Shown piece after piece: positions 1,850 through 46,460 of a DNA stretch of 48,924 nucleotides; the stretch's first letter is position 1, and the number at the start of each line of letters is the position of its first letter. The translations under genes and the position numbers were made by a program. Below the pieces are notes generated by a model. The model made no database searches, was not told the origin of the DNA, and saw nothing but the letters and a program-made list of their open reading frames with translations. This DNA comes from a virus, in IMG/VR virus record IMGVR_UViG_3300031951_011417, positions 1 through 48,924 of that record. One strand, written 5' to 3'.

Positions 1850-1871
1850 GGGGTTATTCAACCCCTTTTTT
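1850..1871. terminator. Bidirectional intrinsic terminator between convergent genes
   Basis: A perfect 6-bp stem GGGGTT (1850-1855) and AACCCC (1860-1865) with an ATTC loop, preceded by seven A (1843-1849) and followed by six T (1866-1871). It works as a terminator on both strands and lies exactly where the peptidase gene (+) and the Clp ATPase gene (-) converge. The stop codon of the latter is inside the stem. Confidence 0.85.
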
Positions 1872-3899
1872 CTTTCTACCCTTTTTCGGTTTATTATCAA
1901 TAAGAACATTAATTTTAATTTCTTTATCAACTACAGTCATAGTGTAATCAACATCTTCTAAAACATTTCCGTTTAAAATTTCTTCAGATATATAATCCTC
2001 AATTTTATCTTGAATCGCTCGTTTAAGAGGTCTTGCACCATATAGTTCATCAAATCCAACTTCGGATATTAGTTCTGTAACGGTATCATCAAACGTAAAG
2101 TTATATTTCATTTTTGAAAGTCGTTTTGATAAAACGTTAATTTCAAGTTTAACAATTTTCTTAACATCCTCTTTAACTAATTGATTGAATATAATAACCT
2201 CATCAATACGGTTTAAGAATTCAGGTGCGAAGAATTTTTGTAGTTCTTTCTTTAACATATCTCTTTTATGTTCTTCTTGAACATAAGTTTTCGCTTGAGT
2301 TCCAAACCCGATTCCACCACCAAAATCTTGTAATTTTTTAACTCCTAAGTTAGATGTCATAATGATAACACAGTTTTTGAAGTTAATCTTTCTACCAAGA
2401 CCGTCAGTGATGTGACCATCATCCAATACTTGTAATAAAGTTGAGAATACATCTTTATTCGCTTTTTCAATCTCATCAAATAAAATAACTGAATATGGTT
2501 TGTTTTTAACTTGTTCTGTTAATTGACCACCTTCATCATAACCAACATATCCTGGAGGAGCACCAATCAATCTTGAGATTGTATGTTTCTCTTGGAATTC
2601 GGACATATCAATTCTAATTAAAGCATCCTCATTTCCGAAGATTTGTTTAGCCAATTGTTTCGCCAAATATGTTTTACCGACTCCCGTTGAACCTAAGAAG
2701 ATAAATGAACCGATTGGTTTATTTGGGTCCTTAATACCAATTCTATTTCTTCTAATAGATTTCGCAATCTTTTTAATTGCATCAGGTTGACCAATAACAC
2801 TATCATTTAAACTATTCTCCAAGTTACTTAATGATTTTGCTTCGTCAGAGTTTAATTTAGAAATTGGAATTTTTGTCATATTAGATACTACATCATAAAC
2901 TAACTCAAGAGACACTTCTTTTTTATGTATACCTAACTCTTCCTCAAATTTTTTCTTTTCTTGTTCTAATTTATTTAGAACTCGTTTTTCTTTATCTCTA
3001 AGGTTAGCCGCTTCCTCATAGTCTTGACGTTTAACTACATCTAATTTTTGTAATTTAATTTCTTGTGCTTCGGCTTTTAGTTCGTCAATAATTGGTGGCA
3101 TTTTAACTTCCACTTGACTACGAGCACCAACTTCATCAATGATATCAAATGCTTTGTCAGGAAACTCTCTATCCGTGATATAACGCTCGGCTAAATCAAC
3201 ACATAAAGTTAATACTTCATCATTATAAGTAACTTTATGATAAGCTTCATATTTATCTTTTGCATTTAGAAGAATTTGTAAAGTTTCTTCTTTGGATGCT
3301 GGGTCAACAATTACTTTTTGAAACCTTCTCTCTAAAGCTCCATCCTTTTCAAAGTTCTTACGGTATTCATCCAAAGTGGTTGCACCTACGCATTGAATTT
3401 CTCCTCTTGCAAGTGCTGGTTTAAATATGTTGGAAGCGTCCATAGAACCCGATGAATTGCCCGCACCAACCATTGTGTGAATTTCATCAATAAAGACTAT
3501 GATGTTAGGGTTAGCCTGAAGTTCCTCAAGGATTACCTTCATCCTTTCCTCAAATTGACCACGGTATTTTGTTCCTGCCACAATTGATGTCATATCCAAA
3601 GAAACAATCTTTTTATCCATTAAATTTCTCGGACATTCACCATTATAAATTTTAATTGCGAGACCCTCAACAATTGCGGTTTTACCACAACCTGGTTCAC
3701 CAATAATGATTGGGTTATTTTTCTTACGTCTTGATAAGATTTGTGCTATCCTCGTTATTTCTTGGTCCCTACCAATAACAGGGTCTAATTTACCTTCTTC
3801 GGCTAACTTAATTAAATCACGACTAAAGTTATCCAATACAGGTGTGGATGAATCACCTTTCTTATTTCCTTTACCGCTATTCTCTGCAGATTCTATCAT
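1854..3899 (-). CDS. ClpC-like double-ring AAA+ unfoldase lacking the N-domain
   Basis: Two AAA+ modules are complete. D1 has Walker A GEPGCGKT (67-74), Walker B VFIDEI (135-140) and a KYRG pore loop (111-114). D2 has Walker A GSTGVGKT (403-410), Walker B ILFDEI (472-477) and a GYVGY loop (450-454). Between them a UVR-like coiled segment (about 290-325, 'QDYEEAANLRDKEKR') marks it as ClpC rather than ClpA or ClpB. The usual N-terminal Clp repeat domain (about 140 residues) is absent; D1 begins about 25 residues after the Met. An IGFG tripeptide-type loop (530-533) sits where ClpC/ClpA carry the ClpP-docking loop, so it could dock onto host ClpP and redirect proteolysis. This is inference; no clpP is seen here. 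It is transcribed alone, from the 3900-4000 intergenic region. Confidence 0.92.
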   Translation of the reverse strand: MIESAENSGKGNKKGDSSTPVLDNFSRDLIKLAEEGKLDPVIGRDQEITRIAQILSRRKKNNPIIIGEPGCGKTAIVEGLAIKIYNGECPRNLMDKKIVSLDMTSIVAGTKYRGQFEERMKVILEELQANPNIIVFIDEIHTMVGAGNSSGSMDASNIFKPALARGEIQCVGATTLDEYRKNFEKDGALERRFQKVIVDPASKEETLQILLNAKDKYEAYHKVTYNDEVLTLCVDLAERYITDREFPDKAFDIIDEVGARSQVEVKMPPIIDELKAEAQEIKLQKLDVVKRQDYEEAANLRDKEKRVLNKLEQEKKKFEEELGIHKKEVSLELVYDVVSNMTKIPISKLNSDEAKSLSNLENSLNDSVIGQPDAIKKIAKSIRRNRIGIKDPNKPIGSFIFLGSTGVGKTYLAKQLAKQIFGNEDALIRIDMSEFQEKHTISRLIGAPPGYVGYDEGGQLTEQVKNKPYSVILFDEIEKANKDVFSTLLQVLDDGHITDGLGRKINFKNCVIIMTSNLGVKKLQDFGGGIGFGTQAKTYVQEEHKRDMLKKELQKFFAPEFLNRIDEVIIFNQLVKEDVKKIVKLEINVLSKRLSKMKYNFTFDDTVTELISEVGFDELYGARPLKRAIQDKIEDYISEEILNGNVLEDVDYTMTVVDKEIKINVLIDNKPKKGRKKKGVE

Positions 3900-9653: not shown

Positions 9654-11423
9654 ATGTCTTTAAGTAAAGAACAGATATTATTAGAATATGTTAAATGTAA
9701 AAGAGATACTGTATACGCATTAAGAACATATTTGCAGACATACGACAATACAGTTTCTAAGTATGTCCCACTAGAGTTATTCCCTGACCAAATTACTTTG
9801 TTAGAGGATTACGAAAATTACAATGAAAACATTGCATTAAAATATAGACAGGCGGGGGTATCTACGGTTACCGCCGCTTGGTCTTCTAAAAAATTGGTCT
9901 TAGCGTCCAAAGAAAAACCTGAAAAAATTCTTATAATCGCCAATAAATTAGATACATCTTTAGAGATGGCTAATAAAATTCGTGCGTTTGTCGGTCAATG
10001 GCCATCTTGGGTTGGGGTTGGATTTGCACCTGAGAAAAATTCACAAAAACATTATAAATTAACAAATGGATGTGAGGTGAAAGCCGTTGCAACATCCAAA
10101 GATGCCTTACGTGGGTTTACACCAACAATATTAATATTTGATGAGGCGGCCTTCATTGATGCTGATGGTGACTTCTGGTCAGCTTGTATGGCGTCCTTGT
10201 CTACGGGTGGTAAAGTAATTGTAGTCTCAACACCTAACGGTAATGACCCTATTTATTATGAAATTTACGACCAAGCATTACGTGGTATGAACGACTTCAA
10301 AATTACCGAAATGTATTGGTATCGTGACCCACGTTATACTAGTGACCTATATTTTATTAAAACTGATGACGCAATTCATTACCTTTTAAACAAAGAGGAG
10401 TATGGTCCTGAAAAAATAATTAGTTGGGCTGACAAACCATTTTCAGAAAGAAATTTTGATGACGTTAAAGAATTGATGAATAACGGATATAAACCGTGTT
10501 CTGATTGGTTTGAACGAATGGTTAAGAAACTTAAATACGATAAACGTAAAGTTTCTCAAGAGTTGGAATGTAACTTTCTTGGTTCAGGTGATAATGTATT
10601 TGACTCAAAATTAATGCAAAAAATTCGTGAGAATTACTTATTAGAACCTCAAAATAAAATGTTGGGTAATCAATTATGGATTTGGAAAGAACCTGTTGTG
10701 GGTCACAAATACATAATGGGGGTTGACGTTAGTCGTGGTGATAGTGAAGATTTTAGTTCCTTCCAAATAATTGACTTTGATAGTCGTGAGCAAGTTGCGG
10801 AATTTGTTGGGAAATTACCCCCAGATACAATGGCTGAAATATGTTACAAATGGGGTAATATGTATTCAGCGTATATTGTGATAGATATTACAGGAGGTAT
10901 GGGAGTATCAACCTCACGTAAATTACAAGAATTAGGTTATAAAAATTTATATACTGATGGTGTAGAATTGGGTAATACTTGGAAGTACAATCCTAAATCG
11001 GCCGAAAAAATACCAGGTATTAACTTTAACAATAAACGTGTCCAAATTATTGCTTCATACGAAGAAGCGATGAGACACGATTTTAAAATATATAGTCATC
11101 GTTTATATAATGAAATGGATACATTTATATATATTAACGGTAGACCTGACCACCAAAAAGGAAGACACGATGACTTACTTATGTCTATCGCAATGGCTAC
11201 TTATGTAGGTGAGTCATCGTTTAGTAATTTAACAAAAGTAACCGAACATACCAAATCAATGTTAGAATCTTGGACGGTAAGTAATAATGATGAAGCGTCA
11301 AAAACATTAGATTTTAACCCTGTTATACCTCATTATCAAGATAGAATAAGACAAATGAATGGGGGTTCTCAAGTTTCTCGCGAAGACTATATGAGATATG
11401 GGTGGTTATTTGGTACTAGATAA
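9654..11423 (+). CDS. terL: Terminase large subunit (T4 gp17-like)
   Basis: 589 residues; DNA-packaging motor ATPase plus headful nuclease. The ATPase domain has a deviant Walker A 'KYRQAGVST' (63-71), in which the usual GKT lysine is replaced and an upstream basic residue probably substitutes. Walker B plus catalytic Glu is 'ILIFDEAAF' (159-167) and motif III is 'STPNG' (192-196). The RNase H-like nuclease has acidic residues D358 ('MGVDVSRGD'), D411 ('YIVIDITGG') and D506/D507 ('GRHDDLLMSIAMA'). It lies upstream of the portal, as in T4, but gp18 and gp19 (sheath and tube), which lie between gp17 and gp20 in T4, are absent here. Confidence 0.95.
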   Translation: MSLSKEQILLEYVKCKRDTVYALRTYLQTYDNTVSKYVPLELFPDQITLLEDYENYNENIALKYRQAGVSTVTAAWSSKKLVLASKEKPEKILIIANKLDTSLEMANKIRAFVGQWPSWVGVGFAPEKNSQKHYKLTNGCEVKAVATSKDALRGFTPTILIFDEAAFIDADGDFWSACMASLSTGGKVIVVSTPNGNDPIYYEIYDQALRGMNDFKITEMYWYRDPRYTSDLYFIKTDDAIHYLLNKEEYGPEKIISWADKPFSERNFDDVKELMNNGYKPCSDWFERMVKKLKYDKRKVSQELECNFLGSGDNVFDSKLMQKIRENYLLEPQNKMLGNQLWIWKEPVVGHKYIMGVDVSRGDSEDFSSFQIIDFDSREQVAEFVGKLPPDTMAEICYKWGNMYSAYIVIDITGGMGVSTSRKLQELGYKNLYTDGVELGNTWKYNPKSAEKIPGINFNNKRVQIIASYEEAMRHDFKIYSHRLYNEMDTFIYINGRPDHQKGRHDDLLMSIAMATYVGESSFSNLTKVTEHTKSMLESWTVSNNDEASKTLDFNPVIPHYQDRIRQMNGGSQVSREDYMRYGWLFGTR

Positions 11424-11479: not shown

Positions 11480-13306
11480 ATGGAAAATAAACAAAATAAT
11501 CTAACAGTTTGGCAACGATTGTCTCAAGCGTTTGGACCAAACTCGTTATTAAATCAAGATTATCCCACTTATAAGTTTGATAAGGAACAATTATTAAAAA
11601 CCACATCAAAACAAGACTATGATAGGGAAAAATTACAAGCACAACAAACTTATTATTTAGCTAATCAATGGACTAAAATTGAAAGTAACTTATATACTCA
11701 GGCAGTGTATTATGAACCAACACGTTTGGCTTCATTCTACGATTATGAATCAATGGAGTATACCCCTGAGATTTCTGCGGCGTTAGACATATACGGTGAA
11801 GAATCCACAACTGTGGACCAAAATGGGTTCATGTTACAAATATATTCAGAATCAAAACGTATTAAATCAATCTTAGCGGATTTATTTAATAATGTTTTAG
11901 ATGTTAACACCAATTTACCTATGTGGACAAGAAACACTTGTAAGTACGGTGATAACTTTGTTTATTTAAAACTAGATGCTGAAAAAGGTATTATTGGTTG
12001 TATGCAATTACCAAACATTGAAATTGAACGTTTGGAAAGAGGTATGGCGGCAAAATCTGCAAATGTTGAAGAGCCTGTTGAAAACAAAGGTTTAAGATTT
12101 AAATGGAAAGCGAAAGATATGGAATTTAATTCTTGGGAAATTGCTCACTTCCGTTTATTAGGTGATGACCGTAAATTACCTTATGGTACGTCAATGTTAG
12201 AAAAAGCAAGACGTATTTGGAAACAATTATTGTTATCTGAAGATGCGATGTTAATATATCGTACATCAAGAGCCCCTGAAAGACGTGTATTCAAAGTATT
12301 TGTTGGTAATATGGACGATAAAGACGTTGAACCATATGTACAACGTGTTGCAAACAAATTCAAAAGAAGTCAGGTTGTAGATTCTCAAACAGGTAATGTT
12401 GATATGAGATTTAACCAAATGGCGGTTGACCAAGATTACTTCATTCCTGTACGTGACCCAGCAGCGGCTAGCCCAATTGATACATTGCCTGGTGCCCAAA
12501 ACTTGGCTGAAATTGCCGATATTGAATATATCCAAAAGAAGTTATTAACAGCGTTACGTGTACCTAAAGCATTCTTAGGATTTGAGGAACCTGTTGGTGG
12601 AGGTAAAGATTTATCTTTAATGGATATCCGATTTGCAAGAACCATTAACAGAATTCAAAAATGTATGATTGCCGAATTAAATAAAATTGCAATTGTTCAT
12701 TTATTCTTATTAGGGTTTGAAGATGAATTATCAAACTTCACATTAGGATTAACCAACCCTTCTTCACAAGCTGATTTATTGAAAGTTGATATTTGGAAAG
12801 AAAAAATATTATTATATAAAGATGCGGTTGCTGGTATTGAGGGTATTGCCCCTGTTTCAGTTTCTTGGGCTAAAAAACATATTTTAGGGTTTTCAGATGA
12901 AGAAATTAAACTTGATTTACAACAACAAAGAATTGAGAAAGCAGTTGGCGCTGAATTAACAAATACCGCAACAATAATAACTCACACAGGTGTGTTTGAT
13001 AATATTGATAAATTATATGGTAATAAATCAGGCGGAACTCAAAATGCTGCGGCAACACCTCCACCTCCTCCTGGTGGAGACATGGGTGGATTAGGTGGTG
13101 AAATAGGAGGTCCTCCACCACCTCCAGGACCACCACCAGGTGGTGAAGCGGGAGTAACACCTGAATCTTTTGAGAGGAGAGATAATTTAAAAATATTATT
13201 AGAAAGTGATAATTTAACCGAAGACGATTCTTTCATTGATTTATCTAAAGCTAAGAATTCTTTAGGGGATATAGAGTCTCAATTGGATAAACTTCTAAAT
13301 AGTTAA
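11480..13306 (+). CDS. gp20: Portal vertex protein (T4 gp20-like)
   Basis: 608 residues. The diagnostic gp20 core is present: 'LLLSEDAMLIYRTSRAPERR' (250-269), 'VFKVFVGNM' next to it, then 'IDTLPGAQNLAEI.DIEYIQ' (333-352) and 'KKLLTALRVPKAFLGFEE' (353-370). It forms the dodecameric portal through which DNA is packaged and nucleates prohead assembly. Unusual features are a Pro/Gly-rich linker (about 523-560) with runs of five Pro, and an acidic C-terminal tail containing L-T-E (near 579-581), a possible prohead-protease site. The gene is followed 22 bp later by a prohead-core-type gene, matching T4 order. Confidence 0.95.
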   Translation: MENKQNNLTVWQRLSQAFGPNSLLNQDYPTYKFDKEQLLKTTSKQDYDREKLQAQQTYYLANQWTKIESNLYTQAVYYEPTRLASFYDYESMEYTPEISAALDIYGEESTTVDQNGFMLQIYSESKRIKSILADLFNNVLDVNTNLPMWTRNTCKYGDNFVYLKLDAEKGIIGCMQLPNIEIERLERGMAAKSANVEEPVENKGLRFKWKAKDMEFNSWEIAHFRLLGDDRKLPYGTSMLEKARRIWKQLLLSEDAMLIYRTSRAPERRVFKVFVGNMDDKDVEPYVQRVANKFKRSQVVDSQTGNVDMRFNQMAVDQDYFIPVRDPAAASPIDTLPGAQNLAEIADIEYIQKKLLTALRVPKAFLGFEEPVGGGKDLSLMDIRFARTINRIQKCMIAELNKIAIVHLFLLGFEDELSNFTLGLTNPSSQADLLKVDIWKEKILLYKDAVAGIEGIAPVSVSWAKKHILGFSDEEIKLDLQQQRIEKAVGAELTNTATIITHTGVFDNIDKLYGNKSGGTQNAAATPPPPPGGDMGGLGGEIGGPPPPPGPPPGGEAGVTPESFERRDNLKILLESDNLTEDDSFIDLSKAKNSLGDIESQLDKLLNS

Positions 13307-13328: not shown

Positions 13329-14045
13329 ATGAAAATAGGGATATTAAAATCAAAAGTTGAGAAGTTATTAACTGAATCATATGGTAAAAACACTTTTAAA
13401 GACGAGATAAAGAACTTTAAGACGTATGTGTTGGAGAACAAAGACATTAGTAAATTGTTTTATCTTTACGATGAGTTAACCTCAAATAAAGGATTAACTG
13501 AGTCAGTTGTTGATGAATTTATTACTGAATGTAAAAATTTATATTCTAAAACAACTTCAAAAATTAAACCAAGTAGTTTAAAACAATTAAATGAGTGGGT
13601 TAAAAATATAAAAACAGAAAATGTTTATTCTCACATTGATGAATTATTTTCAGATAATATATTAACCATTGAGTCAAGAATTAACAGTAAAAGGTTAATA
13701 TATGAGTCACTAAAGAAAAAACCTACCGTTAAAAAGGAATCTCCAAAAGTACCTATTAGTTCTATGGTATCAATAGCTAATAAAACAATTACAAACTATA
13801 TTGAGACATTGAGTGAATCAGATAAAAAAGAATTATATAATTTATTATCTGAGGATGACGATAAATTAAGTAAAGACTTTCAGTCTCTAAAAGAATCGGT
13901 AATCTCTAAATTATCTTCTTTAAAAAGAGAAAATACTGATTATGAAACTGGTAAAAGAATTAATGAAACTATAAGTAAAGTTGAATCTGAAAAATATGAT
14001 AAACTTACATATTTTAAGATGAAAAGTTTAAATGAGAATCTTTAA
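13329..14045 (+). CDS. Probable prohead core protein (gp67/gp68 position)
   Basis: 238 residues, lysine/serine/glutamate-rich and almost entirely helical, between portal and protease genes, where T4 has the core genes 67 and 68. It is studded with sites of the prohead-protease type (L/I-x-E), for example LLTE (13-16), GLTE, FITE and ETLSE, as expected of a core protein that is degraded during maturation. No catalytic motifs. The assignment rests on position, composition and site density, not on recognisable homology. The last 4 bases overlap the end of the convergent bS21 gene. Confidence 0.7.
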   Translation: MKIGILKSKVEKLLTESYGKNTFKDEIKNFKTYVLENKDISKLFYLYDELTSNKGLTESVVDEFITECKNLYSKTTSKIKPSSLKQLNEWVKNIKTENVYSHIDELFSDNILTIESRINSKRLIYESLKKKPTVKKESPKVPISSMVSIANKTITNYIETLSESDKKELYNLLSEDDDKLSKDFQSLKESVISKLSSLKRENTDYETGKRINETISKVESEKYDKLTYFKMKSLNENL

Positions 14046-14236
14046 TTAGGATTGTTCTTATATTTTTTTTGAACGTACTTAGCTTTGTTGAGTACGTTTC
14101 TTTTTTTAACTGATTTTTTAACAAATTCTTTTCTCTCAGTTAATTTAGAACTTTGTCTTGTTTTAATAATTTTACCCTTATATTCTTTAAGTGCCCTTTC
14201 AATATTTGAGTTCTTATCTACTTTAACTATTAACAT
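14042..14236 (-). CDS. rpsU: Ribosomal protein bS21
   Basis: 64 residues, the normal length for Bacteroidota bS21. The N-terminal 'MLIVKVDKNSNIERALKEYK' matches the family start (beta strand then 'ENIDRALKRYK'), and 'KEFVKKSVKKRNVLNKAKYV' matches the basic second helix ('FVKPSVxRRxxxQKAxYxQ'). bS21 binds the 30S platform next to the 3' end of 16S rRNA; in Bacteroidota it helps to cover the anti-Shine-Dalgarno sequence. Phage-encoded bS21 is known from some large phages and is thought to replace the host protein. Here it lies antisense in the middle of the head gene block, with its own upstream region 14237-14311. Confidence 0.9.
   Translation of the reverse strand: MLIVKVDKNSNIERALKEYKGKIIKTRQSSKLTERKEFVKKSVKKRNVLNKAKYVQKKYKNNPN
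14072..14107 (+). terminator. Terminator-like hairpin for the core gene, inside antisense rpsU
   Basis: AACGTACT (14072-14079) pairs with AGTACGTT (14091-14098) around an 11-base loop, followed after TC by seven T (14101-14107). It could end rightward transcription of the 13329-14045 gene while lying wholly within the bS21 coding sequence on the other strand. Confidence 0.5.
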
Positions 14237-14311
14237 AATTTTTAGGTTTTTGACTATAATGGTAAATATACTTATATTTTAAAAAAATAAACGATTATAA
14301 TATGAAAAATA

Positions 14312-14779
14312 ATGAAAAAGGGGAAAACCTCAAAAATACAAGGGTTTGGTACATCTAAAATTGTGTATGGAACTGTTGATTCAATTAATTTTAAATCATT
14401 GTATTTAAATTTACAAACGTGGGTAGAACCAATAAAAGAACCTGAAAATTGGACAAGGGTTGTTCTTAATTTAAGTAGGTCAATTAAACATTCGGTATTT
14501 GAAACATTAGACAGAGATTTATTTGATGAGAATTTCATTGTTGATTTAGACTTACGCTCAAGTGGATTAACATTAGGAAAAAAATCATTTATGAATTTAG
14601 AAATAAATTTTTATCTGTCATCAGAAGAACTTGATTTTAAATCAAAAGAAATAAAAGAGAATTTAAAAGATATTGTAACAAGAATTTATGACGAGAATTT
14701 TAATGGAAATTATTATTTTAATTTTTCATTAACCAAAACCAAAAAACAAGAAGAATTGCTCCAAACCGAAAGTGTTTAA
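14312..14779 (+). CDS. Hypothetical protein
   Basis: 155 residues with an alternating beta-strand pattern: 'SKIVYGTVDSINFKSLYLNL' near the N-terminus, and a motif 'KSFMNLEINFYLSS' in the middle. The C-terminal half is charged and helical. It lies between bS21 (divergent) and the prohead protease gene. No recognised motif or signal; a prohead or virion role is only suggested by location. The ATG at 14302 is out of frame and was not used. Confidence 0.65.
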   Translation: MKKGKTSKIQGFGTSKIVYGTVDSINFKSLYLNLQTWVEPIKEPENWTRVVLNLSRSIKHSVFETLDRDLFDENFIVDLDLRSSGLTLGKKSFMNLEINFYLSSEELDFKSKEIKENLKDIVTRIYDENFNGNYYFNFSLTKTKKQEELLQTESV

Positions 14780-14804: not shown

Positions 14805-15530
14805 ATGGATTTAAAAATATTAAACCCTAACGAAATCGGGAAGGGTATTCTTATAGAATATGATGCGGGATATATATCTCCTAAAGAAAAACATAATTTA
14901 AACTTTATAAAGGAATCTAAAAATTTTTTAGACCATTCTAAACCGTTTGAATTTTATGCGGTGTTACAGAAATATGACACCCCAAATAGAAATGGTAGAA
15001 TATATCCTGAACGTATTTTAAAACGTGAAGCCGACAATTATAAAAAAATGATTGAGAAAGGAGTATCTCTATCTGAATTAAATCACCCAGAATCATCATT
15101 GATTGATTTAGATAGAGTATCCCATATGATAACTGAAATATGGTGGGAAGGTAATATCCTTATGGGTAAATTATTATTACTAACAAGTCCAGGTTTTCAT
15201 GAAAGAGGTATTGTATCAACTAAAGGTGATATGGCCGCTAACTATCTAAGACAAGGAGTTACTTTAGGTATTTCATCAAGAGGTGTTGGTTCATTAAAAA
15301 AAGTAGGTGAAAGAAACGAAGTTCAAGATGACTTTGAACTAATTTGTTTTGACTTAGTATCGTCACCATCAACACCTGGTGCTTATCTTTTCTCAAATCC
15401 TGATGATAGATTTAAGTATGAAGAGAATCTTGAGGAAGAAAAGAAGATGAGAGCGGGAACAGAAGTTAGTGATAATAATAACAAATCACTTGACTTAATG
15501 AAAAGATTGTCCGATTATTTGGGATATTAA
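14805..15530 (+). CDS. gp21: Prohead core protease (T4 gp21-like, peptidase S80)
   Basis: 241 residues. The fold and active site of herpes/T4-type maturation proteases are visible: 'FYAVLQKYDTPNRNGRIYPE' N-terminal strand region, catalytic His H94 in 'LSELNHPESS' and catalytic Ser S157 or S158 in 'LGISSRGVGSL'. It should digest the scaffold and trim capsid and internal proteins after (I/L)-x-E once the prohead is complete. It lies between the core gene and the scaffold gene as in T4. It is slightly longer than T4 gp21 (212 residues), with an acidic C-terminal extension that may itself be autocleaved. Confidence 0.93.
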   Translation: MDLKILNPNEIGKGILIEYDAGYISPKEKHNLNFIKESKNFLDHSKPFEFYAVLQKYDTPNRNGRIYPERILKREADNYKKMIEKGVSLSELNHPESSLIDLDRVSHMITEIWWEGNILMGKLLLLTSPGFHERGIVSTKGDMAANYLRQGVTLGISSRGVGSLKKVGERNEVQDDFELICFDLVSSPSTPGAYLFSNPDDRFKYEENLEEEKKMRAGTEVSDNNNKSLDLMKRLSDYLGY

Positions 15531-17479: not shown

Positions 17480-19363
17480 ATGGGAGCATTATTAGAATCA
17501 GGTCTTGTTGGTAACATCGGTCTTAAGCACCTTAAAGTTATCAAAGAAGATACTATTAACAAATGGGATAAATTAGGATTCCTAGATGGTCTTAAAGGAC
17601 ATCTTAAAGAGAACGTAGCTCAGTTATATGAGAACCAAGCGTCTCACCTAATCAACGAAGCAACTTCTGACGGTTCATCAGGTTCTTTTGAAACTGTGGT
17701 TTTCCCAATCGTTAGACGTGTATTCTCTAAATTGTTGGCAAACGATATCGTTTCTGTACAAGCAATGAACTTACCTATTGGTAAATTGTTCTACTTCGTA
17801 CCTAAAATCCAAGGTTATAATGGTGGTACTTATAATGGATTAGACGCTGGTCAATCAGGAGCACACTACGCACCAATTGGTTCACCAAGTAATCCTGATA
17901 CAGACGGAGCGGCAGTTGCGGCAGGTTATGACCCAGCTTATTCTTCAGGTTCTTACAACCCTACTTACAAGAAAAATCTTTATGATTTGTTCTACGAAGG
18001 AACTGAGCCAGGTTTAGACCCAGCAGGTTTATTTGACTACTCTAAAGGTCGTTGGTCAGCAATTACATCTTCTACTGTTGTTCAAAAATGGGATAATGGT
18101 AGTTTAGTTGACGCTGGTGCGGCATTTGACGGTAAAAATGTAAGAAAACTTATCATCAAAATGTGTGGTTTTGCTGATACAGGTGCTGGTAAATTAATTG
18201 GACCTGATGGAAACGAAATGGATACTGAAGCATTCTTAGCTGATTTACACGTTATTGCTAACGTTGCTGACTTCACAGTTTCTGCAACATCGGCTTGTAA
18301 TACAGTAGTTGATGCTGATGGTAATCCTGTTTCATTATTGTTCAGAGTTGTTACTCAACAATATGGTCAAGGAATTGTTAGTGGTTTAAACCCTGTTAAA
18401 CAAACAACTTGGGCTACTGATGGTAATGGTGGTTCATTCAGAAACGTATGTGACGCTAACGGATGTATCTATTTAGAAATTGACCTTTCTTGTCCTGTAT
18501 GTGCTACTTGTGAAGCAGAATCAATTGACGGATACAATGGTACATTGATTGACACTCTTGTTGATGACGCGGCTTTCACAGCTATCTTCAGACGTTACGA
18601 AGAGTTAGAATTTGAAGACAAAATTGGTGAGGTTTCTTTTGACCTTGAGTCAGTTACAGTTTCTGTGACAGAAAGAAAACTAAGAGCACAATGGTCTCCA
18701 GAATTAGCTCAGGACGTTGCAGCGTTCCATAACATTGATGCTGAAGCTGAATTGACAGCGTTGTTGTCAGAACAAGTTGCAGCTGAAATTGACCGTGAAA
18801 TTTTACGTGACCTACGTAAAGGAGCGGCTTGGAACCTACGTTGGGATTACAATGGATGGAGAAGAATTCAAGCAACTACATCTTACACTCAAAAAGATTG
18901 GAACCAAACTTTGATTACAGCAATCAACCAATTGTCAGCACAAATCCACAAATCTACATTGAGAGGTGGAGCTAACTGGATTGTTGTTTCTTCTGAAGTT
19001 TCAGCTATCTTTGATGACTTAGAATACTTCCACGTATCTAATGCGTCTCCTGAGCAAGACCAATACAACATGGGTATTGAAAGAGTTGGTACATTAGCAG
19101 GTCGTTACCAAGTTTACCGTGACCCTTACTTCCCAGCTAACCAAGTGTTAATTGGACACAAAGGAACGTCATTGTTAGACACAGGTTACATCTACGCACC
19201 GTATGTACCTCTACAATTAACTCCTACAATGTACAACCCATTCAACTTCACACCAATCAAAGGTATCATGACGAGATACGCGAAGAAGATGGTCAACAAT
19301 AGATTTTACGGTAGAATTACTGTAGATGGAGTTCGTACATTTGATTTAAGAGAATTGAGATAA
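17480..19363 (+). CDS. gp23: Major capsid protein (T4 gp23-like)
   Basis: 627 residues, about 100 longer than T4 gp23. N-terminal propeptide 1-60 ends in 'SHLINE' followed by 'ATSDGSSGSF', matching the T4 gp23 cut (FLTE|AEIGG). Conserved parts are 'FPIVRRVFSKLLANDIVSVQ' (75-94) and the C-terminal half with 'KLRAQWSPELAQDVAAFHNI', 'DAEAELTALLSEQVAAEIDR' and 'FYGRITVDGVRTFDLRELR'. An extra region in the middle (about 130-360) carries a cysteine cluster C324, C329, C338, C341, C344, unusual for a capsid protein. Codon choice is richer in C-ending codons than in neighbours, and the leader is purine/A-rich without G, both fitting very high expression. A strong terminator follows. Confidence 0.95.
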   Translation: MGALLESGLVGNIGLKHLKVIKEDTINKWDKLGFLDGLKGHLKENVAQLYENQASHLINEATSDGSSGSFETVVFPIVRRVFSKLLANDIVSVQAMNLPIGKLFYFVPKIQGYNGGTYNGLDAGQSGAHYAPIGSPSNPDTDGAAVAAGYDPAYSSGSYNPTYKKNLYDLFYEGTEPGLDPAGLFDYSKGRWSAITSSTVVQKWDNGSLVDAGAAFDGKNVRKLIIKMCGFADTGAGKLIGPDGNEMDTEAFLADLHVIANVADFTVSATSACNTVVDADGNPVSLLFRVVTQQYGQGIVSGLNPVKQTTWATDGNGGSFRNVCDANGCIYLEIDLSCPVCATCEAESIDGYNGTLIDTLVDDAAFTAIFRRYEELEFEDKIGEVSFDLESVTVSVTERKLRAQWSPELAQDVAAFHNIDAEAELTALLSEQVAAEIDREILRDLRKGAAWNLRWDYNGWRRIQATTSYTQKDWNQTLITAINQLSAQIHKSTLRGGANWIVVSSEVSAIFDDLEYFHVSNASPEQDQYNMGIERVGTLAGRYQVYRDPYFPANQVLIGHKGTSLLDTGYIYAPYVPLQLTPTMYNPFNFTPIKGIMTRYAKKMVNNRFYGRITVDGVRTFDLRELR

Positions 19364-24756: not shown

Positions 24757-26070
24757 TTAATTATATAATCCATTTGGACCGCCTAAAGCGACCGTGTTTA
24801 ATTGTATTACATCTCTACCACTCCCATCACTATATATTGCATGAGGGACTGAAATAGAACTTGTTTCACCTGAACATACCAAACACATAAAATATTCGGT
24901 ATTGGCGCTTATAGGGACTAACGCTTCATTTATTAATTTACCAAAATGATTAAATGGTGGGTAATTACTATCACCACCTAAAAATAAAAACCCATCGTTA
25001 GGTGTTAACGCGAAAGCTAAAAATACATCATCATAATTAGGGTTTAAATAAAAAGAATTGTCTAATGAAGTATTACTTAAAAACTTAATTAATTTATTTG
25101 CCGTAATAAAATCAACTAAGGACGTATAGTATTTTGTGAATGAACCACCTACAATAATTTTATCATCTGATTGGATTATTAAAGAACTTACTTGTGAGTC
25201 TAACCCAAATGAAAATGAATTTGAAAAAGACCCGTCACTATTTATTCTTACTAACTTACCAAATGATAAATCATTACCATTGTAATCGGTAAAATTACCG
25301 CCAAGAATTATTTTACCCGTTGATTGTAAACCCACTGTGGTTACTAATGCGTTTGTACCAGTACCAACATTAAAAGAAGAATCAAAGCCGCCACCTGTTA
25401 AAATTCTAACAACATTTGGTGATGAGTTCCCATCATATGTATCAAAAAGACCTACTGCGATTAATTTACCATCAGGTTGTTTTAAAACATCTAACACGTA
25501 AACCGCAGGTCCACCATCCTCTATTCCATTACCTATCACAAATGTGGGGTCAATAGTACCATCAGAATATAACCTTATTATTCTATTATATGATTGACCA
25601 TCGTATTGAGTAAATTTACCCCCAACAACTATTTTTCCATCATCTTGGACTTCTATTTTATAGACCTCATCATTAAATCCTGTACCACCACTAAAAGTAT
25701 TATCAACCGTACCATCAGAATTAAATCTAATAATACGACCAACATTATAGGTTATACTATCTCTTGTTAATTGAGTAAAAAATCCACCGACTAATATTTT
25801 ACCATCAGTCTGAATATGAATAGTTCTTACGCTCTCATTAAAACCTGAACTACCAACTGTAATATCAAAAGTAGGGTCAAAAGTCCCATCCGAATTTAAT
25901 CTTAAAAGATATGGGGACACATATAATGTTCCTTCATAATCATAATGCTCAAAATCACCAGAAACAAGTATTTTACTATCACTTTGAATTTTAATGTCAT
26001 GTACGTCTTTATCAAAACCGTAATTAACCCCTTGGGGGAATGTATTATCTAATAATCCAGCAGTTGACAT
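24757..26070 (-). CDS. Delta-60 repeat (DUF5122) beta-propeller tail fibre/adhesin
   Basis: 437 residues. Seven repeats with the core 'DGKI.VGG.F..Y.G' can be counted: SKILVSGDF, GKILVGGFF, GKIVVGGKF, GKLIAVGLF, GKIILGGNF, DKIIVGGSF and a final divergent DGFLFLGGD. This suggests a closed seven-blade propeller. The last 50 residues form a separate module (SANTE, CLVC, PHA.Y.D, NTV.LGGP.GL) also found at the end of the adjacent gene. Likely a receptor-binding or decorating tail protein on the virion. No signal peptide. It is the last gene of the minus-strand tail block. Confidence 0.85.
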   Translation of the reverse strand: MSTAGLLDNTFPQGVNYGFDKDVHDIKIQSDSKILVSGDFEHYDYEGTLYVSPYLLRLNSDGTFDPTFDITVGSSGFNESVRTIHIQTDGKILVGGFFTQLTRDSITYNVGRIIRFNSDGTVDNTFSGGTGFNDEVYKIEVQDDGKIVVGGKFTQYDGQSYNRIIRLYSDGTIDPTFVIGNGIEDGGPAVYVLDVLKQPDGKLIAVGLFDTYDGNSSPNVVRILTGGGFDSSFNVGTGTNALVTTVGLQSTGKIILGGNFTDYNGNDLSFGKLVRINSDGSFSNSFSFGLDSQVSSLIIQSDDKIIVGGSFTKYYTSLVDFITANKLIKFLSNTSLDNSFYLNPNYDDVFLAFALTPNDGFLFLGGDSNYPPFNHFGKLINEALVPISANTEYFMCLVCSGETSSISVPHAIYSDGSGRDVIQLNTVALGGPNGLYN

Positions 26071-36600: not shown

Positions 36601-37584
36601 TTATTTATAATATTCAAGCCAATATTCAATCATCTCATCTAACATAGATTCAAAAGTATAATTTGGTCTCCAACCTGTCATTGATTTTAGTTTTGTACTA
36701 TCACCCTTCAAATCGTAAAGTTCTTCAGGACGATAAAATTTTTCATCAATTGTAACATATTCTCTAAAATCTAATTCTAACTTATTAAAGACATATTCAC
36801 ATAAATCTTTAACAGAATGTGATATACCCGTTGAACAAACAAAATCATCGGGTTTATCTTGTTGTAAAATCATCCACATCGCCTCAACATAATCTTTAGC
36901 GTGGCCCCAATCTCTAGTGGCGTCAAGATTACCAAGTTTTAATTGATTAGATAAACCTAATTTAATTTTAACAGCTTCTTTACATACTTTATTCGTAACA
37001 AAATTAGTACCTCTTCTTGGTGATTCGTGATTAAACAATATCCCATTAGAAACAAACATGTCATATGAGTTTCTATAATTTCTACAAATGTTATATGAGA
37101 ATACTTTTGCACATCCGTATGGTGATACAGGATTCATTGGAGTTGTTTCTCTTTGATACCCATCTTGGTCAATACAATTACCAAACATCTCTGAAGATGA
37201 TGCTTGATAAATTTTTATAGATGGGTCAATTAATTTAACCGCCTCTAAAAGATTTAATGTCCCAACACCAGTAACATTTGCCGTGTATAATGGTTGGTCA
37301 AATGAAATTCTAACATGTGATTGAGCCGCTAAATTGTAAATTTCAACGGGTCTAACTTCTTGAATGACACGAATTAATGATGACAAATCTGTCATATCGG
37401 CATAGTGTAGTTTAATTTTTTCGTATACCGAGTCTAATCTTGAAGTTTGATTTTCAGAAACTGAGTTTCGTTTTAAAGTCCCGTGTACCTCATAACCCTT
37501 GTCAAGTAAAAATTCTGTTAGGTATGAACCGTCTTGTCCGTTTATACCTGTAATTAATGCGATTTTATTTTCTAACGTTCTCAT
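36601..37584 (-). CDS. gmd: GDP-mannose 4,6-dehydratase
   Basis: 327 residues, short-chain dehydrogenase/reductase fold. NAD(P)-binding GINGQDG (13-19), catalytic 'QASSSEMFG' (127-135) with E132, and YGCAK (156-160) giving the Y-x3-K pair. 'FNHESPRRG' and 'LDATRDWGHAKDY' are Gmd signatures for GDP-mannose binding. It converts GDP-mannose to GDP-4-keto-6-deoxymannose, the substrate of the next enzyme (Fcl), whose gene ends 20 bp into this one. All key residues are intact, so it is probably active. About 45 residues shorter than E. coli Gmd. Confidence 0.95.
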   Translation of the reverse strand: MRTLENKIALITGINGQDGSYLTEFLLDKGYEVHGTLKRNSVSENQTSRLDSVYEKIKLHYADMTDLSSLIRVIQEVRPVEIYNLAAQSHVRISFDQPLYTANVTGVGTLNLLEAVKLIDPSIKIYQASSSEMFGNCIDQDGYQRETTPMNPVSPYGCAKVFSYNICRNYRNSYDMFVSNGILFNHESPRRGTNFVTNKVCKEAVKIKLGLSNQLKLGNLDATRDWGHAKDYVEAMWMILQQDKPDDFVCSTGISHSVKDLCEYVFNKLELDFREYVTIDEKFYRPEELYDLKGDSTKLKSMTGWRPNYTFESMLDEMIEYWLEYYK

Positions 37585-38476
37585 AATTTTTAATAAAGTA
37601 CTTTATAGTTTTTTTTAATCCATCATATAGTGGGGTAAAATTAAAATCGGGTAAATAATTTTTTAATTTTGAATTATCTGATGGTTTTCTATATTGACCA
37701 TCTGGTTTATTGACGTTGAAATATACCTTACCCTCAAATTCCATAATTTCAGTTATGATACTGACAACTTCTTTAATTGATATTTCTTGTGAAGTTGATA
37801 AAATAATTGGTTCGGATTCAGTGTAGTTATATAAAACCCATTCAGTTAATTTTGCAACATCTTCACTAAAAATGAACTCCCTTAATGAATTTCCTGACCC
37901 CCAAATTTCAAACGGAGTGTTATTTTTTTTGGCTAAATAACATTTATGAATTAATGAAGGTATGACATGACCATTTTCAATATTGTAGTTGTCATTTGGA
38001 CCATAGATATTAGTGGGTATAACCGATTTATAATTTAATCCGTATTGTTCTCTATATGCTCGTATCTGAATATCTGTCATTCTTTTGGCATATGCATATG
38101 CGTCGTTTGAAAAATGAGGTGGTCCTAAATGTATTTTATTCTCAGTTAAAGGATATTCTATATTGTCGGGGAATACACATGTGGATAAAAAAGCAACAAG
38201 ATTTTTAATACCGTGAACCCTTGCTGATTCAATAACATTCGTATTCATCATTATATTATCGTGAAAAAATTCACCTTTATAGTTCATATTTCCACCAACA
38301 CCCCCAACTCTACCAGCACAATGAATTATGGAGTCAAATTTTATCTTATTTAACACCTCGTCAATTTCGGTTCTATTTCTTAAATCACATTTACTTGACG
38401 ATAATGGGGTATAATTATCCCCATTAAATTCAGAACCAACAAGACCATAACCCCCTGTTACTAAAATATTTCCCAT
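37565..38476 (-). CDS. fcl: GDP-L-fucose synthase (GDP-4-keto-6-deoxymannose epimerase/reductase)
   Basis: 303 residues from the ATG at 38476, which overlaps the upstream stop by one base (TGATG); a GTG at 38479 is less likely. NADPH site GGYGLVG (8-14), 'HCAGRVGGVGGN', the S98-T-C100 pair in 'LSTCVFPD', YAYAK (127-131) and H170 in 'ENGHVIPSLI' reproduce the Ser-Cys-Tyr-Lys-His active site of Fcl. 'SLREFIFSEDVA' binds the substrate. Together with Gmd it makes GDP-L-fucose. The 20-bp overlap with gmd suggests stoichiometric expression. Confidence 0.93.
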   Translation of the reverse strand: MGNILVTGGYGLVGSEFNGDNYTPLSSSKCDLRNRTEIDEVLNKIKFDSIIHCAGRVGGVGGNMNYKGEFFHDNIMMNTNVIESARVHGIKNLVAFLSTCVFPDNIEYPLTENKIHLGPPHFSNDAYAYAKRMTDIQIRAYREQYGLNYKSVIPTNIYGPNDNYNIENGHVIPSLIHKCYLAKKNNTPFEIWGSGNSLREFIFSEDVAKLTEWVLYNYTESEPIILSTSQEISIKEVVSIITEIMEFEGKVYFNVNKPDGQYRKPSDNSKLKNYLPDFNFTPLYDGLKKTIKYFIKNYENVRK

Positions 38477-39696
38477 CACATCCCAATAATTTCAAAAGTG
38501 GGGCAAGGAACAATAAATTTACCCCCACTTTTTAAAAATTCTGACTCTCTTTCAACAAACTCATTTATAAAATGCCAAGGTAGTACTAACAAATAATCAG
38601 GTTTAGCCTTTCTCATTTCATCTTCAGAATAAATAGGAATGTTAGTACCGACTGTTTTAAGTCCGAACTTGTATATACTTCTTTCAGCAATACCGTCAAT
38701 CAAAGTATGGTCTAATCCAAAATATTGTAAAAGAGTATTACCTTTAGTTGATGCCCCATAGCCCCAAATTGTTTTTCCTTTGGATTTTTCTTCCTTAATA
38801 AAGGAGATTGTTTTTTCTTTTAAATCGTTAATCCTATCAAAAAATTTTAACCAAACCTCTTCTTTATCTAAACCTAATGTTCTTTCATATTCTAACGTAG
38901 ATTTTAATCTGAAATTACAAATATCACGATAAGGCTGAGTTCCGAATTTAGTTTTATCGGAATTTTCTTTCATACAATAAATTCTAAAAGACCCTCCGTT
39001 AGTGTCATTAAGTTGTATATCAACTATATCAATACCACATTCTTTAAATATTTTTTGGATATTAAACAATGAATAGTAATATACATGTTCATGGCAAATG
39101 TTATCAAAGGCTAATTGCTCAATCATCAATGGTGTGTATGATAATTGTAATACCCATACTCCATTATCGTCCAAAATTTCAACGATATCATTTACAAAAC
39201 TTTTAGGGTCTTCTAAATCATAAAACATTGCAATGGTAGTTATAACCTTTGCCTTTAATTTTCCAAATTTACTTTCTTTAAAAACCTTTGACGTGAAATA
39301 ATCCTGAATAATTAAATTGGCATGTTTTTCGGATTCTCTTTTAAATGAATCATCAACTGGGTCTATACCGACTTTAATTAAGTTATCGGGTACATTACTC
39401 AATAATGTACCATCATTACATGCGATATCCACCCATAAATCATTTTCGTTTAATTTAACAATGTCAGTTATTGAATTAACAATTGATTTTAATTCTTTTT
39501 TCATGGTATTATTAATTCCTGACCTATACCAATATTTTCCATACATAGTATCTAAAGGTGCTATTTTTTCTAATCTAACCGCACCCGTTTCAGGTTCTAA
39601 CATCATTTTCATCTCTACTGAACCACCTCTTGGGGATTCACCATCTTTTAAAAAGTCAGAAACATATAAATCTCCTAGTGTAAATAATTCTTTCAT
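38476..39696 (-). CDS. Sugar C-methyltransferase-like protein (TylCIII/Methyltransf_14 type)
   Basis: 406 residues. SAM-binding Rossmann part 'DLWVDIACNDGTLLSNVPDN' and 'LIKVGIDP'; then 'ICHEHVYYYSLFNIQKIFKE' with the His/Tyr pair and 'NDTNGGSFRIYC', and the C-terminal 'TIWGYGASTKGNTLLQYFGL', all diagnostic of NDP-hexose C-methyltransferases (Methyltransf_13/23/14 arrangement). The N-terminal zinc-binding cysteines of the family are missing; only 'FTLGDLYVSDFL' remains. It would add a branch methyl to a 4-keto sugar such as the Gmd product, though family members also act otherwise. Confidence 0.82.
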   Translation of the reverse strand: MKELFTLGDLYVSDFLKDGESPRGGSVEMKMMLEPETGAVRLEKIAPLDTMYGKYWYRSGINNTMKKELKSIVNSITDIVKLNENDLWVDIACNDGTLLSNVPDNLIKVGIDPVDDSFKRESEKHANLIIQDYFTSKVFKESKFGKLKAKVITTIAMFYDLEDPKSFVNDIVEILDDNGVWVLQLSYTPLMIEQLAFDNICHEHVYYYSLFNIQKIFKECGIDIVDIQLNDTNGGSFRIYCMKENSDKTKFGTQPYRDICNFRLKSTLEYERTLGLDKEEVWLKFFDRINDLKEKTISFIKEEKSKGKTIWGYGASTKGNTLLQYFGLDHTLIDGIAERSIYKFGLKTVGTNIPIYSEDEMRKAKPDYLLVLPWHFINEFVERESEFLKSGGKFIVPCPTFEIIGM

Positions 39697-39704
39697 AAGT
39701 TTTA

Positions 39705-40313
39705 TTATTTTAATAATTTATTATTAACATACCAATCTTCATATGGTTTGTTATACCATTCAGGATTTGGGTCTAAACACGGAGCGTTATCAACAACTCT
39801 AGAAAACCCGTTTTTAGTTAAAAGTTCAAAAATTTGATTTTTACGAGTATCACCATCACAATAAAGATTATGTTCTACAGTAATCAGACCAATCTCATAT
39901 TTGATAAAATCAAACTCTTTTAATGCGATATATTCGTAACCTTCAATATCTATAGATAAATAATCAATAACGTTTGGTGCATTATTTTCGTCTAATATAT
40001 TTAAAAGAGTGTCACAATCAATACTGATACCTTCATTAGTTATTTTATATTCATTAGCATTAAAATTACAAGTACCTTTATAATCAGTTACCGCCTTGTT
40101 GACGTTTACCGATTTCCTGTTTTTAATCAATGAATTAAAAACTGACGGATTAGCTTCAATACATATTCCTGACCAATTAAAATTTTTCTCAAAAAAATAA
40201 GTATTACTTGTTTGAATTCCATCATAAGCACCAACCTCAATAAAGTACCCATTTTTTTTGAATTCTAAAAATTCTGCGACCCATTTGTCTTGATTAGATT
40301 GTGAATAATACAT
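39705..40313 (-). CDS. FkbM-family methyltransferase
   Basis: 202 residues. 'YFIEVGAYDGIQTSNTYFFE' is the SAM-binding motif I, 'GICIEANPSVFNSLI' motif II, and 'IDYLSIDIEGYEYIALKEF' the FkbM-specific acidic segment. FkbM enzymes O-methylate hydroxyls, often on sugars. The Cys-containing C-terminal part is short. It lies 2 bp from a second FkbM gene. Confidence 0.88.
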   Translation of the reverse strand: MYYSQSNQDKWVAEFLEFKKNGYFIEVGAYDGIQTSNTYFFEKNFNWSGICIEANPSVFNSLIKNRKSVNVNKAVTDYKGTCNFNANEYKITNEGISIDCDTLLNILDENNAPNVIDYLSIDIEGYEYIALKEFDFIKYEIGLITVEHNLYCDGDTRKNQIFELLTKNGFSRVVDNAPCLDPNPEWYNKPYEDWYVNNKLLK

Positions 40314-40315
40314 TT

Positions 40316-40951
40316 TTACTTTTTTATATATATTTGATTATAATCAACGATGTCGGATAGATAATACCCAATACTTTCAAAATAATTCTTATATGAATCA
40401 TCATTTAAAAAATTTTCAACGACAATTAATTTACAATCAATATTTTTAGTATTTAGACCTCTCATAACCTCAATTTCCCAACCTTCAACATCAATTGATA
40501 AGATATCAACCTTATTAATATTGAGTTCACCTAATATCGTGTCTAGTTTTTTTATTTTGACTTTTATTTTTTCACTATTTTTATCTGTTAAAATAAAATT
40601 AGTGTTATTTAGATAACTTTCTTTAACGTCAATAGAAGAAAATGAGTGGTCGGTTACAACTCCCCCATACGCGTTTACCTCTTGATGAACTATAGTAAAT
40701 TCACCATCTCTATCTTCATAAGAACATGCAAATTCATACACTTCGTTACCAACCTCTTTATGTTGTTCTACAAAAGTAGGGTTAGGTTCAATTATAATTG
40801 ACCTCCAACCGTTATCTTTAAAGTGTTTTGACATTGATAAAAACTCAGGAGTCGCACCCCCAACCTCAACGATTAATCCTTTATATTCGTAATCTGAAAA
40901 ATATTTTTCTCTAATTATTTTATCAGTATCATATTCAGCGTAAAACTCCAT
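40316..40951 (-). CDS. FkbM-family methyltransferase (second copy)
   Basis: 211 residues. 'YKGLIVEVGGATPEFLSMSK', 'WRSIIIEPNPTFVEQHKEV' and 'VDILSIDVEGWEIEVMRGL' give the FkbM motifs. Only distantly similar to the neighbouring FkbM gene, so probably different position specificity rather than a recent duplicate. The 58-bp gap upstream (40952-41009) is AT-only and could carry a promoter. Confidence 0.87.
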   Translation of the reverse strand: MEFYAEYDTDKIIREKYFSDYEYKGLIVEVGGATPEFLSMSKHFKDNGWRSIIIEPNPTFVEQHKEVGNEVYEFACSYEDRDGEFTIVHQEVNAYGGVVTDHSFSSIDVKESYLNNTNFILTDKNSEKIKVKIKKLDTILGELNINKVDILSIDVEGWEIEVMRGLNTKNIDCKLIVVENFLNDDSYKNYFESIGYYLSDIVDYNQIYIKK

Positions 40952-41009
40952 ATTCCATTTTTTTATTATTTAAATTATTGTTAGGGTAATATTATTATTA
41001 ATTAATAAA

Positions 41010-41924
41010 TCACAGTTCCATTATTTTGTCAAAATTATTTATAAAATTTTCATTTGACCATTTTAGTTTATGTTCTAGTAAAGGAGAACAACCACCACTG
41101 ATTATATCAGTAATTTTATTTTTCTCAATAGAAATTTCATCACAAAATATATGTCTCATCATATTACAATTAGTGACCGCAATTGGTACATCAACTGATA
41201 ATGCGTAATCAATAACAGATGAGATACCTTTAGATGGTTTTTTATCATAATAGAAACAATTCACACTACTTTCATTTAACCACTCCAATAACTCATAATT
41301 ACTCATGTAATGGTCTGTAATAATAAATTCATTTTTATTATTTAACATATTCTCACATAATTTTAAAGTTTCGGTTTTCAAATGGTTATTTATGTCAACA
41401 TTTGCATTTGGAATATGGAATCTAATTAAAGAATCGGTATATTCTTCATTAATTTTATTAATTAAATTGTGAAATCCTTTATCCGGAAACCCAAACCCAA
41501 ATGAAGAAATAATTGGTCTTTCGTTATTTTGTTTATTTTTACTTGGTTTAAAATCAAATAAACACCGGTTAATATTATGTTCAGTAACATTATCAACAAT
41601 TTTTGTTGGGTCATTGTATAGTATTCCTTTTATACTAGAAAACTTTAAATCACCATCGTGATAAATAAAATAACAATTATATTGTGACGATAATTGATTA
41701 ACTATCTCATCTGTTATCCATCCCATAACCCATATAATGTAATTAAAAACAATAATATCTATTTTATTATTATTTAAAAAATTATTTAAAGTTGTAACGT
41801 CATTAGTTTCTAAGTAATAGTAATTGTTGTTTTTACTTTTTTTAAGACTTTCATATATGTTTAACCCATATTGATGAACACCACAATTAGTTGTTTGTCT
41901 ATTAACAATTAAAATATCTTTCAT
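41010..41924 (-). CDS. GT-B glycosyltransferase, 'CGV' type, copy A
   Basis: 304 residues. N-terminal 'ILIVNRQTTNCGVHQYGLNI' matches the N-terminus of the upstream gene ('ILYINHSKSQCGVYEIGKRI'), so the two are paralogues. 'SSFGFGFPDKGFHNLINKIN' and 'FYYDKKPSKGISSVIDYALS' form the nucleotide-sugar domain. Overlaps the upstream gene by 4 bp. Very AT-rich with Asn/Lys inflation. Confidence 0.78.
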   Translation of the reverse strand: MKDILIVNRQTTNCGVHQYGLNIYESLKKSKNNNYYYLETNDVTTLNNFLNNNKIDIIVFNYIIWVMGWITDEIVNQLSSQYNCYFIYHDGDLKFSSIKGILYNDPTKIVDNVTEHNINRCLFDFKPSKNKQNNERPIISSFGFGFPDKGFHNLINKINEEYTDSLIRFHIPNANVDINNHLKTETLKLCENMLNNKNEFIITDHYMSNYELLEWLNESSVNCFYYDKKPSKGISSVIDYALSVDVPIAVTNCNMMRHIFCDEISIEKNKITDIISGGCSPLLEHKLKWSNENFINNFDKIMEL

Positions 41925-42853
41925 AACGATTCTATCATTCTTTTATAATCATTTGTCATTCTTTCAGGTGACCACAAGTCGTACAACTCTTTTACTTTTG
42001 TATTGTTTTTTAAAAACGACTTTAAATTATTTTTTTGTTCAAAAAAACCTATGTGATTATGAAAATGTCGGTACATATAGGTATTATTAACCACTAAACT
42101 AGATTGCGAACTTACCGCCAAATCAGCACTTCCACCAACCCCGATAAACGGGTGAGGGGGATTATAAAAGTACATATTTAAATCATTTTTAGATAAGAAA
42201 TTAATAACCTCATCCTCAGATTCAAAATAAGTGTTAGTAATATTTAAATTAACGTTTTTCTTATTAATAATATTTTTCCATAAATTAAATTTATATGTAT
42301 CATCACCACCACCAAAAGTAGCTTGAGTTATATTCATATTAATATTTACCTCATCAAATTCGTCGTGTATTAGTTCAATCATCCTGTCAAACATTTTCCA
42401 AGGGGAAACACTAAAACCATGAGAACCTATATTTAAAATATTGTTTTCATTTTTTTGTTTTGTAAACCTTCTTATTGGTCTAATAGTCGTAAATTTATTA
42501 TCACTTATAGTTTGATTAGTATCGTCATGAATCACCCAACAATCAAAAGTTGTGTTGTAAAAACTAACCATTTCAGGAGTTAGTGGGTCATGGATTATAC
42601 CGATATGTTTAGCATTGGGATACTCATTAAAAAGACCTTTATGTATATATGGTAATGTACTTAGGTAATAATTATACAATACATAATTAGGTTTTTCATT
42701 TTCCATAATTGACCTATATTCCGATTCCCCATTTACAGGGGTTTCAAAATACTTAACAGGTAAAATGTTTTTATCTAAAAGGTCATAAATCCTCTTACCA
42801 ATTTCATATACACCACACTGTGATTTTGAATGATTGATATATAATATACTCAT
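41921..42853 (-). CDS. GT-B glycosyltransferase, 'CGV' type, copy B
   Basis: 310 residues, paralogue of the preceding entry. 'HIGIIHDPLTPEMVSFYNTT', 'IGSHGFSVSPWKMFDRMIEL' and 'HPFIGVGGSADLAVSSQSSL' correspond to the same parts, with the last segment contributing the sugar-nucleotide site. Substrate unknown. It starts 2 bp from the Gmd-paralogue gene. Confidence 0.78.
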   Translation of the reverse strand: MSILYINHSKSQCGVYEIGKRIYDLLDKNILPVKYFETPVNGESEYRSIMENEKPNYVLYNYYLSTLPYIHKGLFNEYPNAKHIGIIHDPLTPEMVSFYNTTFDCWVIHDDTNQTISDNKFTTIRPIRRFTKQKNENNILNIGSHGFSVSPWKMFDRMIELIHDEFDEVNINMNITQATFGGGDDTYKFNLWKNIINKKNVNLNITNTYFESEDEVINFLSKNDLNMYFYNPPHPFIGVGGSADLAVSSQSSLVVNNTYMYRHFHNHIGFFEQKNNLKSFLKNNTKVKELYDLWSPERMTNDYKRMIESL

Positions 42854-42855
42854 TT

Positions 42856-44808: not shown

Positions 44809-44809
44809 T

Positions 44810-46318: not shown

Positions 46319-46460
46319 CTTCGTTTTCTTCTAATAATTTCTTTAACTTATCTAATTTTTCTGTCATATACCCATTCCACCACCCATCATTCATATTTGA
46401 CATGGCAATTTCAGACTTCACCTTTTCAATCTCACACTCTATTTCTTTTTTACTTTTCAT
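46290..46460 (-). CDS. Small 56-residue protein in an overlap region
   Basis: Reads 'MKSKKEIECEIEKVKSEIAM' to a TAA at 46290-46292, with a coiled-coil-like charged composition and a central 'NDGWWNGYMTEKLDKLKKLL'. The ATG overlaps the stop of the dUTPase gene by 4 bp and its end overlaps the start of the GT2 gene by 29 bp. This spacing (ATGA coupling) is the same as in the surrounding operon, which supports it as a real gene despite its length. No family recognised. Confidence 0.6.
   Translation of the reverse strand: MKSKKEIECEIEKVKSEIAMSNMNDGWWNGYMTEKLDKLKKLLEENEDDNNNLLNT

Follow-up and report, generated by a model that had tools for sequence, protein, structure and literature searches.

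The bS21 gene analyzed here is encoded on the reverse strand within a block of head genes in a 48,924-nucleotide stretch of viral DNA (IMG/VR record IMGVR_UViG_3300031951_011417), referred to below as the window. The order of genes in the block is terminase large subunit (TerL), portal protein, a 238-residue hypothetical protein, bS21 (antisense), a 155-residue hypothetical protein, head maturation protease and major head protein (Table 1). The bS21 open reading frame starts with ATG and comprises 64 amino acid codons and a stop; its translation is MLIVKVDKNSNIERALKEYKGKIIKTRQSSKLTERKEFVKKSVKKRNVLNKAKYVQKKYKNNPN. The initial annotation placed the gene between core and protease genes. The protease side and the location in the head block agree with our results, but the upstream 238-residue protein was matched as 'core' in no library.

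Table 1. Features of the bS21 locus and the surrounding head-gene block (window coordinates)
Feature	Position	Strand	Evidence
Terminase large subunit	9654..11423	+	phrog_2, E 5e-38
Portal protein	11480..13306	+	phrog_213, E 5e-66
238-residue hypothetical protein, convergent with bS21	13329..14045	+	no PHROG; DUF445 below cut-off
TTAA, 4-bp overlap of convergent stop codons (bS21 / 238-residue gene)	14042..14045		sequence
Phage bS21 coding sequence, 64 residues	14042..14236	-	Pfam and structure match, Tyr54 retained, dN/dS 0.02-0.16
Intrinsic-terminator-like hairpin and T tract within the bS21 frame	14071..14108	+	conserved, compensatory stem changes
bS21/155-residue gene intergenic region with conserved block	14237..14311		conservation; promoter role inferred
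155-residue conserved protein, divergent from bS21	14312..14779	+	AF2 model, bS21 adjacency
Head maturation protease	14805..15530	+	phrog_207, E 6e-42
Major head protein	17480..19363	+	phrog_138, E 3e-67

The Pfam profile search matched residues 4-55 of the 64 to Ribosomal_S21 (PF01165, E 3e-6) with 27.2 bits, a bare margin over the curated gathering score of 27 bits, and in the genome search the score of 26.3 was under this cut-off. With the NCBIfam equivalog TIGR00030 the protein scored 19.3 bits, under the cut-off of 28.95; by this profile, the window bS21 is a divergent homolog outside the canonical cellular equivalog. Among solved structures, the top match is Flavobacterium johnsoniae bS21 (7jil_z, E 1e-8), aligned without gaps over residues 1-57 with Tyr54 matched. 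The second is one other bS21 (E 1e-7), and all remaining matches have E > 0.04. Thus, the exact reading frame and the Pfam and structure matches bear out the earlier identification of a 64-residue antisense bS21.

A scan of viral contigs found 105 related coding stretches, and phage bS21 is under purifying selection (NG86 dN/dS 0.02-0.16). Both observations argue against a chance reading frame. One related bS21-bearing contig (L066) is 322 kb long. In a midpoint-rooted tree of 84 cellular Bacteroidia and 24 phage sequences (64 columns), all 24 phage proteins fall on one side of a branch with 100/100 support, and the window bS21 belongs to this separate phage clade rather than being nested among the cellular proteins. 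A phylogeny had been proposed as a check in the initial annotation; the window protein grouped with bS21, and grouping with non-bS21 proteins did not occur. The label 'flavobacterial-type' given there fits only in part, as phage bS21 is about 45-50% identical to cellular Bacteroidia copies and forms a clade of its own. Going by bS21 affinity, the window virus may infect Bacteroidota.

Residues 22-28 (the linker) follow a conserved, phage-specific pattern, K[VI]IKT[RK]Q, as opposed to KF[DE]KTG in cells. The initial annotation also linked bS21 to the anti-Shine-Dalgarno (anti-SD) sequence. This link is upheld by residue 54, which is Tyr in the window protein and Tyr (115), His (11) or Phe (2) in all 128 aligned distinct phage homologs. 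His54 is found in some host bS21 proteins as well.

The stop-codon overlap between bS21 and the convergent 238-residue gene recurs in the majority of 31 loci checked, nearly all close relatives included. On the strand that carries the convergent operon, the bS21 frame contains a hairpin with a 13-bp stem (14071-14099) followed by CTTTTTTTA. It thus has the hallmarks of an intrinsic terminator, namely, a stable stem, then a T tract, 3' of a stop codon. The convergent genes leave no room between them, and the hairpin spans codons 47-55 of bS21, including that of residue 54. None of 300 synonymous-codon recodings of the window bS21 was as stable as the native hairpin. The stem also covaries, with changes on both sides in 12 cells. 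Shuffles gave 4.9, with none of the 500 equaling the observed count, which is also far above that of slid registers; the changes represent only a few independent events. The codon pair GTA(48)/TAC(Tyr54) is swapped for either ATG/CAT (Met48/His54) or GTG/CAC (Val48/His54), and a hairpin is retained in 20 of the 22 His54 genes, which are mostly related to one another. A hairpin of -8 or lower is present in 52 of 159 distinct phage bS21 genes, and in other phage clades a hairpin with a T tract occurs at other places within bS21. We infer that the hairpin is a putative terminator of the transcript that includes TerL, portal and the 238-residue gene.

On its other side, bS21 is separated from the divergent 155-residue gene by a conserved block, TTTTGACTA-N7-AAATATACTTAT plus AAATAAAC. 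The + strand reads TTGACT (14250-14255)-N17-TATATT (14273-14278), while the - strand carries TATATTTA (complement of 14263-14270); AAATAAAC lies at 14285-14292. The distance from the block to the 155-residue gene is nearly fixed, whereas that to bS21 varies. Judging by its conservation, the block would fit a promoter for the + strand gene and, via TATATTTA, for bS21. TATATTTA resembles TATTTATA, a motif enriched before window genes: it occurs within 50 nt of the start codon in 9 genes (e.g. 20680, 20164, 13329, 4001) compared with 1.2 expected and is a possible phage late promoter element. The idea of a TTTTGAC promoter repeated across the window was rejected, as there are 20 sites and 18.9 expected; solely the copy in the bS21 intergenic region is supported, by its conservation. 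AAATATACTTAT likewise shows no excess elsewhere in the window.

Loci were retrieved with the 155-residue protein, taking the 160 closest out of over 580 candidates, near-duplicates included; in 153 of the 158 assessable ones bS21 adjoins the 155-residue gene on the opposite strand. The 155-residue gene is found without bS21 at L256, L313, L323, L329 and L342, possibly as a result of bS21 loss. The AF2 model of the protein is confident (pLDDT 86, pTM 0.80). It has no counterpart among PDB folds at E <= 0.001 (the top hit is at 0.011, TM 0.31) and matches one viral model, the uncharacterized A0A8S5L9A5 (TM 0.80). No homolog was detected in the annotated phage collection. The protein probably represents one of the two hypothetical families reported by Chen et al. 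to flank bS21.

Shine-Dalgarno (SD) signals were scored by pairing the 16S tail AUCACCUCCUUUCU with the 25 nt that precede each start codon, and values of -13 kcal/mol or lower were considered strong. By this measure, the bS21 leader in the window (+0.8 kcal/mol) is devoid of the extended SD of Flavobacteriaceae rpsU, the cellular bS21 gene, which is strong in 80 of 80 genes (-17.5 to -23.3 kcal/mol; among these records, a few are labeled with other or broader taxa). Among 137 distinct phage bS21 leaders, none has a strong SD and 10 have a moderate one (-8 or lower; 3.6 expected). In loci L226, L228, L232, L347 and L348, unlike in the window clade, GGAGG precedes phage bS21 (-10 to -12.5 kcal/mol). 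Leaders of window genes in general are SD-less and A-rich, with a median pairing of -1.35 versus -1.2 for shuffles, and 2 of the 48 genes scored show some SD pairing (-8.8 and -7.0). With phage messages being SD-less, nothing points to a preference for phage mRNA based on SD, and we found no sequence feature separating phage from host leaders.

Outside Flavobacteriaceae, rpsU genes often do without a strong SD. With the canonical anti-SD, -13 is reached by 7 of 30 rpsU genes in a class-wide Bacteroidia control and by 3 of 28 in an order-wide sample, in which 5 more match an alternative anti-SD. SD escape as a universal rule was therefore rejected, given also the phage leaders with a moderate SD. 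Because a strong rpsU SD is not universal, phage bS21 should escape host-type rpsU autoregulation only if the host is of the Flavobacteriaceae type.

Several other window genes are of interest. A ClpA/ClpC-like double-AAA+ unfoldase with a GIGFG loop (1854-3899, - strand) adjoins an M20/M42-type peptidase (1032-1844, + strand). A phage-encoded protease against host bS21 was raised as a speculation for such phages by McNutt et al. (PMC9976891). The region 36601-48900 (- strand) codes for GDP-mannose 4,6-dehydratase and glycosyltransferases, which are likely to serve surface polysaccharides, and a 437-residue protein with six DUF5122 beta-propeller stretches (24757-26070, - strand) is possibly related to tail or receptor.

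In F. johnsoniae, bS21 controls its own synthesis: ribosomes that lack it read the very strong SD of rpsU (McNutt et al. 2023, PMC9976891). Such ribosomes are slower to initiate on SD-less mRNAs, and those without functional bS21 gain SD-dependent initiation, with effects of Y54A and deletion reported (PMC9976891). In our preferred interpretation (rough probability 0.6), the window gene codes for a functional, phage-adapted bS21 that takes over from host bS21 at a late stage, with ribosomes kept SD-independent. Its expression would be late, driven by a promoter of its own within the head-gene block, and the protein would take the bS21 site on the Bacteroidota 30S platform, as expected from homology. 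Tyr54 could then stack on the 16S 3' tail, so that the anti-SD stays hidden and the ribosome is held in the SD-independent state that the SD-less phage messages would need. Without a strong SD in its leader, phage bS21, unlike Flavobacteriaceae rpsU, should not require ribosomes free of bS21 for its synthesis. Where the host rpsU has a strong SD, occupancy of the site by phage bS21 would hold that gene in its repressed state. Some mRNA preference may come in addition from the phage-specific linker (residues 22-28), in line with a proposal made by Chen et al. for divergent residues there.

The gene would be tied into the head block by the stop-stop overlap, the in-frame terminator-like hairpin and the shared divergent promoter-like region. 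We see even odds that bS21 is doubly encoded in the sense that codons 47-55 double as an intrinsic terminator for the head operon that converges on the gene, with selection for the RNA hairpin and for the ribosome contact acting on the same bases. Together with the SD-free leader, this would free the gene from host autoregulation and tie it into phage late transcription.

A more active role, in which phage bS21 would favor phage mRNAs, was put forward by Chen et al. 2022 and also by the initial annotation. Active selection would then work by way of the altered N-terminal/linker region of the protein. The strong conservation of phage-specific residues 22-28 speaks for it, as does the placement of divergent residues by Chen et al. 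at the site where mRNA would bind. Yet we found no distinguishing leader feature to be selected, and the SD-less, A-rich leaders of the window are just as described for host messages, which makes this explanation rather unlikely. Less probable still is a non-ribosomal role as a virion component, an RNA-binding regulator or a mere carrier of the antisense terminator. The location in the head block, the hairpin within the frame and an extra-ribosomal association of bS21 reported in another setting (PMC12054373) would be compatible with it, but selection acts at the amino acid level, the ribosome-contact residue is kept and 107 of the 159 homologs are without a strong in-frame hairpin. Finally, it is very improbable that phage bS21 displaces host bS21 so as to expose the anti-SD and favor SD-bearing phage messages: the SD-dependent initiation gained by ribosomes without functional bS21 (PMC9976891) and the two window genes with some SD pairing would fit, but an aromatic residue 54 is retained in every aligned homolog and the median pairing of window leaders is close to that of shuffles.

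If phage bS21 does replace host bS21, infection would yield specialized ribosomes. The idea of such ribosomes is debated, and in this phylum SD use is itself governed by bS21. As the host circuit is known (PMC9976891), reporters exist for testing its takeover by an SD-free phage bS21. The putative in-frame terminator, in turn, offers a testable case of RNA and protein coding overlapping at a functional residue.

The window bS21 is similar to F. johnsoniae bS21 (7JIL) in its ungapped alignment, Tyr54 and length. It differs in sequence (46% identity), in linker 22-28 and in that the phage gene has no extended SD. Pelagibacter phage HTVC008M also carries bS21, and its protein enters E. coli 70S ribosomes (Mizuno et al. 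2019, PMC6375957). HTVC008M is not a Bacteroidota phage; incorporation of the window bS21 into ribosomes is plausible by analogy. The closest counterparts are the Bacteroidetes jumbo phages of freshwater lakes described by Chen et al. 2022 (PMC9723584), with complete genomes of 293-331 kb. They carry a reverse-strand bS21 in the same head-gene block, and their bS21 proteins form a separate phage clade with an aromatic residue 54. These genes are expressed late together with structural genes, and divergent residues are placed where mRNA would bind. The authors hypothesized that phage bS21 enters host ribosomes and favors phage transcripts (PMC9723584). The window, a 48.9-kb fragment compared here with their published description, shares the antisense bS21 between two hypothetical genes in the TerL/portal/protease/major head protein block, a phage bS21 clade separate from cellular bS21, the aromatic residue 54, and PhoH and Clp-like genes. 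Hence, the layout, host group, Tyr54 conservation and ribosome-swap idea are already published, and the bias toward phage messages suggested in the initial annotation was already hypothesized by Chen et al. and is not a new inference. The main text of that study does not mention SD strength of the phage genes, a promoter or an in-frame terminator (PMC9723584). New here are the absence of a strong SD, the in-frame terminator-like hairpin and the pairing of bS21 with the 155-residue gene across a conserved promoter-like region.
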